NCBI RefSeq assembly: GCF_029767755.1
Contig: NZ_JARUQS010000001.1
Span: 124,001 to 188,000, forward strand
Reading direction: 5' to 3'
Source of the DNA: Thiomicrorhabdus sp. zzn3
Lineage (GTDB): Bacteria; Pseudomonadota; Gammaproteobacteria; Thiomicrospirales; Thiomicrospiraceae
DNA length: 64,000 nucleotides
The position numbers and the translations under genes are program-made. Under the pieces are notes generated by a model. That model was given only the letters and a program-made list of their open reading frames with translations, was not told the DNA's origin and ran no database searches. This document shows positions 13,127 through 40,527 of this stretch, piece by piece. The stretch's first letter is position 1. Every line of letters begins with the position of its first letter.

Positions 13127-14299
13127 TTAAGAGGGCTTTGCGTTCGTCTGGGCTGATTCCAACTCAGTCAAAATGCGATTCATATAGCTTTTAAAGACGC
13201 CTTCGTAATGTGGGTTAGGCAGTAAGAAGGCATCGTGTCCATGTTCCGAAGTGATTTCAGCGTAGCTGACATCTGCATCGTTATCGAGCAGAGCTTTGAC
13301 GATTTCATGCGAACGTTCCGGCGAGAATCGCCAATCTGAGGTAAACGAGATGACCAGGAATTTGGCCGTGGCGTTGGCCAGGGCTCGGGTTAAATCATGA
13401 TCATATTCGGCCGCCGGATCAAAATAGTCCAATGCCTTGGTCATCAGCAGATAGGTGTTGGCATCAAAATTCTGTTTGGTGGCAAACTTTTCACCTTGGT
13501 AACGCAAATAACTTTCAACCTGAAATTCTACGTCAAAGTTATACTGCAGCTTGCCTTCACGCAGTTCGCGACCGAATTTCGTTCCCATCATGTCATCGGA
13601 GAGGTACGTTAGGTGTCCCAGCATGCGTGCCAGCGCAAGCCCGCGCTTTGGTGTGGTGCCGTGTTCGATAAAACGGCCATCGTGAAAATCCGGATCCGAC
13701 ATGATCGCTTGGCGGGCCACTTCGTTAAAGGCAATGTTTTGCGCAGATAATTTCGGTGCAGCCGCGATGACAACGGCATGCTCAAGCTTATCCGGATAGT
13801 CGATCGCCCACTGTAAAACCTGCATGCCGCCCATAGAACCGCCGACTAGTGCGGCCCATTTTTCAATGCCTAAATGTTTACGCAGTTCGTTTTGGCTGTT
13901 GACCCAATCGCGGCAGGTCATAATTGGAAAGTCTGGGCCATACACCTTGCCGGTGTTGGGATTGATGGTGGTCGGCCCAGTACTGCCGCGGCACCCTCCG
14001 AGGTTGTTGGAACAAACCACAAAAAAACGATTGGTATCGATGGTTTTTCCCGGGCCGATATAACCATCCCACCACCCCGGCTTGCCGTCTGCATCTATAC
14101 CGGCAACGTGATGATCTCCGCTCAATGCATGGCAGATCAGGATGGCGTTAGAGGCATCCTCATTGAGTTCGCCGTAAGTTTCATACACCAGTTCATACCC
14201 GGGAAGAACGGCTCCGCTCTCTGTTTCCAAAGGGGTGTCTACCTTAAGTATTTGCGGTGTTGTGATCGCGCTGTTTTCTTGCTGTGTGGCTGAGCTCAT
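13127..14299 (-). CDS. metX: Homoserine O-acyltransferase MetX
   Basis: A 390-residue alpha/beta-hydrolase-fold enzyme that activates homoserine for methionine synthesis. The triad is visible: nucleophile S155 in GGSMGGMQ, D322 in TSDWRFSP and H355 in EHGHDAFL. The family start VYETYGELN and HALSGDHH are present. Whether acetyl- or succinyl-CoA is used cannot be settled from overall similarity; enzymes paired with MetW are often succinyltransferases, so the acyl donor is left open. It sits between yggT and metW in a tight operon. No SAM-riboswitch-like element is evident in front of this operon. Confidence 0.95.
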
Positions 14300-37481: not shown

Positions 37482-38222
37482 TTACCAGTCTCCCCAGCGT
37501 AATTGCAGGCCGGCTAACACTGCCGGTCCGGCGGTTTCGGTGCGTAAGACGCGTGGCCCAAGACGAATTGCGGTTAAGCCTTTTTGAGTGGCTTGCAACA
37601 CTTCCTCTTCGGTCAATCCGCCTTCAGGACCAATCAACAGGTGAATCGGCGTGGTTAGCGCCGGTTGCTGGATGCTGTTCAAGGTTTCAGACGCGTAAGG
37701 ATCCAAAGTAAGGCCAAATACCTCGGTGTTGTCTAAGCTTTCTAACCAGGCCTGCCAGGTTTGAATGGCACGGACTTCTGGCACAAAGCAGCGGCCGCTC
37801 TGCTCGCAGGCGCTGATGACAATGTTTTGCCACTGATCACGACGCTTTTCAAGTTTATCGCCACTGAGTTTGACTTCACAACGCTCACTGAAGATGGGCT
37901 GAATGGTGGTGACGCCCAGTTCCACCGCTTTCTGCAGAGTGTAATCCATGCGGTCACCGCGCGAGATACTTTGTACCAATACGGTGTTGAGCGGCGATTC
38001 AACCCGGGGCTCGGATAGGGTTTCGATGCACAGGTCGGCACTGCGTTTTCCGGTTACTACCAAAGTGGCACGGGCTTCAATGCCTTGGCCATTAAACGCT
38101 TCAACCGGATGGTGGTTTTTGAGGCGCAAGACGTTAAGCGCATAGTGAGCCTGCTCTTTGCTCAGGCTGATGACGTGTTTGGGGGCGTAATCACCTGGCA
38201 GGTAAAGTCTGGGAATGCGCAT
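37482..38222 (-). CDS. rsmE: 16S rRNA (uracil-1498-N3) methyltransferase RsmE
   Basis: A 246-residue SPOUT methyltransferase acting on 16S rRNA. N-terminal PUA-like part: RLYLPGDYAPKHVISLSKEQAHYALNVLRL. The knotted SAM site shows LLIGPEGGLTEEEV and LGPRVLRTETAGPAVLAGLQ, both diagnostic. ERCEVKL is the usual middle motif. It precedes nothing on its own strand until the GGDEF sensor 157 bases further. The repeat is in frame at 37747-37754 (Gln-Ala-Trp). Confidence 0.96.
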   Translation of the reverse strand: MRIPRLYLPGDYAPKHVISLSKEQAHYALNVLRLKNHHPVEAFNGQGIEARATLVVTGKRSADLCIETLSEPRVESPLNTVLVQSISRGDRMDYTLQKAVELGVTTIQPIFSERCEVKLSGDKLEKRRDQWQNIVISACEQSGRCFVPEVRAIQTWQAWLESLDNTEVFGLTLDPYASETLNSIQQPALTTPIHLLIGPEGGLTEEEVLQATQKGLTAIRLGPRVLRTETAGPAVLAGLQLRWGDW

Positions 38223-38251: not shown

Positions 38252-39106
38252 TTAGCCTTTCAAAGTCAGTGACTGTGCAATGCTGAGCGTCGGTTCAATC
38301 TGGTTCATGCTGTAGAAATGGATGCCCGGAGCACCAGCGTCCAGTAGGCGTTGCGACAGTTCGGTGACCACGTCCTGACCAAAGGCCATCAGGCTCTCTT
38401 TATCGTCTTCAAAACTTTCCAGGCGGCATTTCAGCCAGCGCGGCACTTCGGCTCCACACCCTTCGGAGAAACGGATCAGGTTCTCGTAGTTGGTAATCGG
38501 CATGACCCCCGGCACAATCGGAAGGTCGATGCCGTTGCGTTCACAATTATCGATAAAGTAGAGGTAGCTGTCTACGTTGTAAAAATATTGTGTGATCGCC
38601 GAATCCGCACCCTGTTCCACCTTATGTTTGAACCACTTGATACCGATGTCGCAATTACGCGCTTGAGGGTGGGTTTCCGGGTAGGCGGCTACTTCAAGGT
38701 GAAAGGTGTCCCCTTTTTCGGCACGAATAAAGGCGATCAAATCACTCGCATATTTGAATTCGCCCGGATCCATCATTCCGGAAGGCAAGTCACCACGCAG
38801 AGCCACAATGCGTTTGACGCCCATCTTTTCATAAGCCTCAAGGAGCTCACGCACACTTTCTTGGGTAGCACCGATGCAGGTCAGGTGAGGGGCGGCATCG
38901 AATGGGGTCTGCTCCTGAATATAGCGGACGGTTTCCACGGTTTTTTCTTGAGTGGTACCGCCGGCACCATAGGTGACCGACATGTATTCCGGTTGAAGCG
39001 CGCCAAGCCCTTCAATCACGGTTTTCAGCTTTTCTGTACCTTGTTCGGTTCTCGGCGGAAAGAATTCCAAACTCAGTTTTTGCGGGTATTTCTGTTGCGA
39101 CTGCAT
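38252..39106 (-). CDS. metF: Methylenetetrahydrofolate reductase
   Basis: A 284-residue FAD enzyme of the TIM-barrel type, providing 5-methyl-THF for methionine synthesis. LSLEFFPPRTEQG, SVTYGAGGTTQEKTVE, HLTCIGAT, RIVALRGDLP, YPETHPQA and SAITQYFYNVDSY are all expected family segments. It follows metK after 81 bases. A hairpin between them may reduce read-through, so the two may be only partly cotranscribed. Confidence 0.97.
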   Translation of the reverse strand: MQSQQKYPQKLSLEFFPPRTEQGTEKLKTVIEGLGALQPEYMSVTYGAGGTTQEKTVETVRYIQEQTPFDAAPHLTCIGATQESVRELLEAYEKMGVKRIVALRGDLPSGMMDPGEFKYASDLIAFIRAEKGDTFHLEVAAYPETHPQARNCDIGIKWFKHKVEQGADSAITQYFYNVDSYLYFIDNCERNGIDLPIVPGVMPITNYENLIRFSEGCGAEVPRWLKCRLESFEDDKESLMAFGQDVVTELSQRLLDAGAPGIHFYSMNQIEPTLSIAQSLTLKG

Positions 39107-40348: not shown

Positions 40349-40355
40349 GTTTGTT

Positions 40356-40405
40356 CCTCGAAAAAGTTATGTCGTGCAAGACAAATTAAATAGAACGAGG
40401 TACGG
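40356..40405 (-). promoter_or_regulatory. Possible expression platform of the metK riboswitch
   Basis: Read on the minus strand, CCGTA (40401-40405) directly precedes CCTCG (40396-40400). CCGTA is complementary to TACGG in the aptamer tail (40442-40446). CCTCG is complementary to CGAGG both after the aptamer (40431-40435) and in the metK ribosome-binding site (40356-40360). The alternative pairings could switch access to the ribosome-binding site. This is inference; the stems are only five bases each. Confidence 0.4.
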
Positions 40406-40430
40406 AAAAATCGGCGGGAAGGGTGGATTT

Positions 40431-40492
40431 CCTCGCTTTAGCCGTACTTATTAAGGCGCCCGCAAGCTGAAAATCAAATCGGCGCTAACTAA
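40431..40492 (-). promoter_or_regulatory. SAM-II-like riboswitch aptamer ahead of metK
   Basis: On the minus strand GCGCC and GGCGC close a hairpin whose loop contains GATTTGA and CTTGC. The tail reads TTAATAA and then GGCTAAAG. This order (GCGC, GATTT, CTTGC, GCGC, TAA, GCTAAA) is the SAM-II layout. A pseudoknot is available: loop AGCTTGC pairs with tail GTACGGCT with one bulged C. The predicted transcript start falls just before it. The gene downstream makes SAM, which supports the call. Decisive would be a covariance-model score. Confidence 0.72.
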
Positions 40493-40498
40493 CTTTTT

Positions 40499-40527
40499 AT
40501 TATCTCAATTTTTTATTTGGTAGTCAA
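40499..40527 (-). promoter_or_regulatory. Sigma-70 promoter of metK
   Basis: TTGACT (40522-40527), a 17-base spacer and GATAAT (40499-40504) on the minus strand. A start about seven bases further would place the SAM-II-like aptamer at the very 5' end of the RNA. Confidence 0.75.

Follow-up and report, generated by a model that had tools for sequence, protein, structure and literature searches.

The metK locus

The metK gene of Thiomicrorhabdus sp. zzn3 lies on the minus strand of the window (i.e., the whole 64,000-nucleotide stretch of DNA analysed here), where it is followed by metF and then by rsmE, which encodes a SAM-dependent enzyme (Table 1). The metF gene is probably on the same transcript as metK. 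Upstream of metK is a leader that holds a SAM-II aptamer and that shares a downstream arrangement of paired elements with the leaders of related genomes.

Table 1. Features of the metK locus, in the direction of transcription from promoter to rsmE
Feature	Position	Strand	Remarks
Promoter	40499..40527	-	-35 TTGACT (40527-40522), 17-nt spacer, -10 GATAAT (40504-40499); 10/12 consensus matches
metK leader	40349-40504	-	holds the SAM-II aptamer
SAM-II aptamer	40421..40495	-	span of the RF00521 match; 25.1 bits, E 0.0011
P1 5' strand GCGCC	40481..40485	-	partner 40456-40460
L1 GAUUUGA	40474..40480	-	fully or almost invariant in alignments A1 and A2
P2 5' strand CUUGC	40462..40466	-	U40465, U40464, G40463, C40462 = U20, U21, G22, C23 of 2QWY
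P1 3' strand GGCGC	40456..40460	-	partner 40481-40485
Helix A 5' arm GUACGG	40442..40447	-	overlaps P2 3' strand; pairs with CCGUAC
P2 3' strand GCUAAAG	40436..40442	-	G40442, C40441, U40440, A40439, A40438 = G42, C43, U44, A45, A46 of 2QWY
Intervening hairpin GCGAGGAA/UUCCCGC	40414..40436	-	predicted fold; arms conserved in most family leaders; no conserved U-tract
Helix A 3' arm CCGUAC	40400..40405	-	pairs with GUACGG
Anti-Shine-Dalgarno CCUCG	40396..40400	-	shares C40400 with helix A; covaries with Shine-Dalgarno
Shine-Dalgarno CGAGG	40356..40360	-	7 nt upstream of metK AUG
metK, methionine adenosyltransferase (SAM synthetase), 386 aa	39188..40348	-	NCBIfam TIGR01034, 637 bits, E 8e-192
metF, methylenetetrahydrofolate reductase	38252..39106	-	TIGR00676, 327.7 bits; same strand as metK
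rsmE, 16S rRNA (uracil(1498)-N(3))-methyltransferase	37482..38222	-	NF008692, 280.7 bits; same strand as metK

The original prediction, which was made from the sequence of the window, had placed a TTGACT-17-GATAAT promoter ahead of the aptamer, and such a promoter is indeed found there. Taken alone it is weak evidence, as a mean of 0.7 such sites is expected in shuffles of the region; a promoter-like site does, however, recur in 32 of 46 homologous leaders versus 10% of shuffles, and most of these sites end 7-9 nt upstream of P1. Promoters of alphaproteobacterial SAM-II elements occupy the same position relative to P1 (Corbino et al. 2005, PMC1273637).

Membership in the SAM-II class

At curated cut-offs no Rfam family matches the leader. 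When the cut-off is lifted, the metK leader matches RF00521 (SAM_alpha, the SAM-II family) over the full length of the model (positions 1-79) at an E-value computed against all of Rfam, with a score below the gathering score of 36 bits, which is a curation threshold rather than a feature of the RNA. The search with Rfam SAM models that the original prediction had proposed thus returns a SAM riboswitch, though one under its gathering score. The only other match obtained in this way is a weak one to RF02424 on the opposite (plus) strand (15.8 bits), and the covariance models of the SAM/SAH riboswitch (RF01727) and of SAM-V (RF01826) yield no match up to an E-value of 10.

The DNA of the leader recurs in 37 of 58 relatives, and a covariance model, termed here R1, was built from 31 relatives. 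R1 matches the window at 40431-40489 with 80.3 bits, has a single match in the entire genome, and also reaches the canonical alphaproteobacterial SAM-II leaders of metZ, which have the usual GUGGC-type P1. RF00521 itself matches 77 of 229 genomes of the class, 20 of which exceed the cut-off, and 14 control genomes give no match; this argues that strong and weak scorers form a single series; one member above the cut-off (L031, 42.1 bits) is continuous with elements of the window's type. The stability of the whole-leader fold is unremarkable (z -0.85), as expected of a pseudoknotted switch.

The blocks that the original prediction had read in SAM-II order are all present on the minus strand, namely GCGCC, GATTTGA, CTTGC and GGCGC, followed by GGCTAAAG at 40443-40436. 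Among 107 distinct sequences, 99.6% of P1 cells are paired and double changes occur in three pairs, a degree of covariation that is matched on all five measures by only 0-1 of 500 shuffles; hence the GCGCC/GGCGC stem does covary in related leaders, which was a further check that had been proposed. P2 is formed by CUUGC and GC(U)AA(A)G, with the U and A skipped, in agreement with structure 2QWY; 97.9% of its cells are paired among 106 sequences and four of its five pairs are invariant, so that it is conserved without covariation. The pseudoknot first suggested, AGCTTGC/GTACGGCT with one bulge, is not the P2 of SAM-II: CUUGC/GCUAAAG fits 2QWY and is invariant in relatives, and the pairing AGCUUGC/GUACGGCU was dropped in its favor.

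The ligand pocket is likewise retained. Within L1, the nucleotides G40480, U40478, U40477 and U40476 correspond to G8, U10, U11 and U12 of 2QWY, and the base triples of that structure, G8-C23-G42, U11-U21-A45 and U12-U20-A46 (PMC3764141), map to G40480/C40462/G40442, U40477/U40464/A40439 and U40476/U40465/A40438, respectively. The equivalents of these triples and of U44 are all in the window and are conserved in alignment A2. The outer extension of P2 known from alphaproteobacteria (CGGCC/GGCCG) is unsupported here, being 70.8% paired and no better than shuffles; because the final 3' pairing element occurs in most, though not all, SAM-II RNAs (PMC2704228), this extension is treated as a feature of a lineage rather than as a defining one.

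The full-length RF00521 match, the R1 model and the covarying P1 uphold the prediction of a SAM-II-like aptamer ahead of metK in a gammaproteobacterium, and these sequence comparisons support the conclusion that the leader element of this Thiomicrorhabdus is a real SAM-II riboswitch.

The expression platform

Leaders of the window's family have in common the GUACGG at the end of the aptamer, a hairpin GCGAGGA/UUCCCGC, CCGUACCUCG, and the Shine-Dalgarno (SD) sequence CGAGG. Helix A (GUACGG/CCGUAC) is paired in 100% of cells in 31 of 31 sequences; at its G-C end, A-U and G-U are found in some of 46 leaders, and the sister genus g28 has G-C in place of an inner A-U, though double changes are few and four of them come from one clade. 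The anti-SD CCUCG is paired with the SD in 98.7% of cells, and 8 cells carry double changes, a number reached in none of 500 shuffles; the fifth pair is G-C in 20 sequences, A-U in 7, U-A in 1, G-U in 1 and something else in 2. (This 31-row platform alignment omits L035, L036, L038, L039, L048 and L051, whose platform differs, and register was preserved by deleting a single surplus U from L056.) A candidate anti-sequestor, in which the upstream GCGAGG would pair with CCUCG, was rejected: it lacks covariation and its outer pair is mismatched in 10 of 31 leaders. The anti-SD is missing from genus g28, whose platform is different. The metK leader L015 (G018) retains an intact aptamer and is missing the conserved platform; its distance from aptamer to start is 346 nt, versus 61-124 nt elsewhere, and part of the extra DNA resembles an inserted inverted-repeat element.

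The computed energy needed to open the window's SD is 3.75 kcal/mol in the free form and 6.14 kcal/mol when the aptamer is held bound; this difference of 2.39 compares with 0.32 +/- 0.71 in shuffled platforms, none of 40 of which shows one as large. By the same computation the SD is less open in the bound than in the free form in 44 of 46 leaders; in a shuffle control of 11 leaders, L005 and L238 gave no signal. The computation leaves the SD largely paired in the free state as well (the median chance of full opening is 0.4%), so that the ON state may rely on co-transcriptional kinetics or on help from the ribosome.

A terminator scan of the window leader found no intrinsic terminator, and only 8 of 46 family leaders have a run of at least five U ahead of CCGUAC. 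Of the 'complete leader architecture' that had been claimed, promoter and aptamer stand, and the scan yields no terminator; the output of the riboswitch is most likely control of translation.

Distribution and target genes

At the level of the order, R1 matches 55 of 63 genomes; in an even sample of the class it matches 177 of 369, and in the phylum 30 of 299, the last including alphaproteobacterial metZ leaders. A SAM-II element in a gammaproteobacterium is thus common rather than the exception for which it was first taken. Within the window's family (Thiomicrorhabdus, Thiomicrospira, Hydrogenovibrio) metK lies behind the element in every leader examined; in g2, a sister genus in this family, none of four genomes (G032, G059, G066, G070) has a SAM-II match, and there the element seems to have been lost. 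SAM-II also precedes metK in seven more families (f44, f80, f102, f122, f132, f137, f188), in these cases with terminator-like hairpins. The usual target of SAM-II is metZ, which is also its commonest target outside the window's family, where metF, metN, metE and metX are seen as well. The metX gene at 14299 of the window has no SAM-II leader, just as the original prediction had stated.

MetJ (PF01340) was found in 4 of the 369 class genomes, none of which has an R1 match; four genomes are too few to prove mutual exclusion of MetJ and SAM-II, and, because the sample was drawn evenly by family, families such as Enterobacteriaceae count little in it.

Several leaders depart from the single-aptamer arrangement. 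SAM-II-like aptamers occur in tandem, about 100-120 nt apart and with a terminator between them, in L153, L187, L192, L201, L211, L217, L223, L224 and L226 (genomes G387, G265, G142, G176, G304 and G180), and one of these genomes, G304, has 10 model matches. Such pairs precede genes not known in methionine metabolism (a MoxR-like AAA ATPase, an HD-domain protein and proteins without a Pfam match), and their second aptamer has no Rfam SAM-II or SAM-V match at an E-value of 0.05. In L262, L264 and L265 (at about 1500-1730), a second GGGAUUUGAGGGG-CAGCUUGC-GCUAAAGCGC block comes within about 120-170 nt after SAM-II, as in known SAM-II/SAM-V tandems; a metZ-like gene follows in L262 and in L265. 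L141 has, at 1-52, a partial SAH riboswitch match (33.1 bits) that is cut by the end of the stretch and is located behind metK, some 1.3 kb past the start of SAM-II; here metK is under SAM-II and an SAH riboswitch is next in line.

An annotated sRNA opposite a SAM-II-like leader

The plus-strand RF02424 match over the metK leader resembled noise but pointed to an antisense relationship in Burkholderia. RF02424 ('Bp2_287 Burkholderia sRNA') matches the minus strand of L252 from Burkholderia arboris at 1468-1641 with 203.7 bits, and L253 as well; on the opposite strand in B. arboris is a SAM-II-like element ahead of metZ, with a P1 of GCGUC/GACGC, a terminator and an extra hairpin. RF02424 was described as a candidate Burkholderia sRNA, tested by RT-PCR, with metZ and metX as its neighbors (PMC3521395). 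On this sequence comparison, RF02424 lies antisense to a metZ leader of SAM-II-like type. Gene context and published description indicate that the element opposite RF02424 is probably the betaproteobacterial metXZ element of Leyn et al. (2014). The element opposite RF02424 shares the SAM-II blocks with the window's, there ahead of metZ, but has a terminator platform and an additional hairpin, placed after P1 and before the P2 3' strand.

Discussion

The outline of the SAM-II class in gammaproteobacteria was already known: Barrick and Breaker (2007, PMC2258182) reported sporadic occurrences, perhaps acquired by transfer, and according to Meyer et al. (2009, PMC2704228) SAM-II is present in alpha-, beta- and gammaproteobacteria. 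In the survey of Leyn et al. (2014, PMC4239095), SAM_alpha was confined to Rhizobiales and Rhodobacterales, and no metK was among its targets. No paper describing SAM-II ahead of metK was found in a literature search that was mostly blind to subscription journals; both metK as a SAM-II target and the distal translational platform appear to be new to the literature.

Like the RF00521 prototype, the metA element (Corbino et al. 2005, PMC1273637), the window's element consists of a single stem P1 and a pseudoknot P2, carries the GAUUUGA, CUUGC and GCUAAAG blocks, has a promoter ending a few nucleotides before P1, and occurs as a single copy ahead of a gene of the SAM cycle. It differs from alphaproteobacterial members in its weak model score and its lack of a supported outer P2 extension, from the SAM_alpha targets of Leyn et al. 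in that its target is metK, and from RF00521 RNAs in that the SD is masked by a separate downstream helix and not by the aptamer. In the translation-type SAM-II riboswitches from the Sargasso Sea metagenome and S. meliloti metA (PMC9373788) the SD is hidden upon ligand binding, as is proposed here; there, however, it lies in or beside the pseudoknot, whereas in the metK leader it is about 80 nt downstream and would be reached through helix A and the anti-SD. The SAM/SAH riboswitch of Rhodobacterales (PMC2864571) is also a pseudoknotted SAM sensor directly ahead of metK, but is a different motif, absent from the Rfam matches here. SAM-V and the tandem SAM-II/SAM-V arrangements (PMC2704228, PMC11508383) have a related pocket and pseudoknot; unlike those tandems, the window has a single aptamer and no SAM-V match.

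The proposed mechanism is as follows. Without SAM, GUACGG would be occupied by the downstream CCGUAC, forming helix A, which would leave the anti-SD only about four pairs with the SD (i.e., only CUCG), so that ribosomes could load. With SAM, GCUAAAG would close the P2 pseudoknot on CUUGC and helix A would lose its 5' arm; the freed GUACCUCG (the CCGUAC-CCUCG region) could then pair with CGAGGAAC over the SD, blocking initiation and reducing metK translation. The ligand response is inferred from membership in the SAM-II family. It is likely, in our judgment, that the riboswitch thus lowers metK translation at high SAM and thereby forms a direct product-feedback loop, in which SAM binding and the sign and size of the switch are inferred, whereas the aptamer and its class membership, helix A, the anti-SD/SD pairing and the gene are established by comparison and the energy difference by computation.

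The main competing explanation is that this SAM-II element acts through a transcription terminator, as in metZ leaders, with SAM allowing the GCGAGGAA/UUCCCGC hairpin and the U-rich CGAUUUUU to end transcription. The window does have GC-rich arms followed by CGAUUUUU, and a crude scan finds terminator-like hairpins at 82 of 97 metZ loci and at 7 of 7 metK loci outside the family, although the same scan flags 12 of 52 leaders within it. Yet the window leader itself is negative in the terminator scan, the scarcity of U-runs before CCGUAC in the family speaks against such a device, the CUUUAG/CUUUGG antiterminator complement is absent throughout the family leaders, and termination would leave the conservation of CCGUAC and of the anti-SD without a reason; we consider this explanation unlikely.

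That the element controls metK in response to a ligand other than SAM alone (SAH or another analogue), in the manner of the SAM/SAH riboswitch, is less probable still: the metK context is shared with that riboswitch in Rhodobacterales (PMC2864571) and variant riboswitches with altered ligands do exist (PMC10853860), but every pocket nucleotide of 2QWY is kept, SAM-II discriminates strongly against SAH (PMC1273637), and SAM_SAH gives no Rfam match even at an E-value of 10. The Rfam score under the curated cut-off would also suit a conserved leader that is no riboswitch at all, such as a protein-binding or transcription-factor site resembling SAM-II by chance; set against the block order, the covarying P1, the invariant pocket and the continuity with L031, which scores above the cut-off at 42.1 bits, this is extremely improbable. 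Translational control of metK by SAM through a SAM-II riboswitch remains the preferred reading.

In a broader reading, to which we give somewhat better than even credence, the metK loop of the Thiomicrorhabdus family relies on a conserved long-range platform of a new kind, acting on translation, where the aptamer, helix A and the SD helix swap partners; SAM-II is the main SAM sensor of methionine genes throughout Gammaproteobacteria in the GTDB sense (former betaproteobacteria included), masked by the Rfam cut-off and by the wrong-strand RF02424; and in at least eight families it puts metK itself under product feedback. The window's element is part of a widespread, mostly unannotated branch of SAM-II in gamma- and betaproteobacteria, a class far wider than surveys at the Rfam cut-off, with their restriction to Rhizobiales and Rhodobacterales (Leyn et al. 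2014), had indicated, and an annotated Burkholderia sRNA family is reassigned to the reverse strand of a riboswitch leader. Because its state-switching helices are visible by covariation, the compact expression platform is testable with a few paired mutations. For gammaproteobacteria without MetJ, which was seen in 4 of 369 genomes as against 177 of 369 for SAM-II, the element would provide a mechanism for the control of metK.
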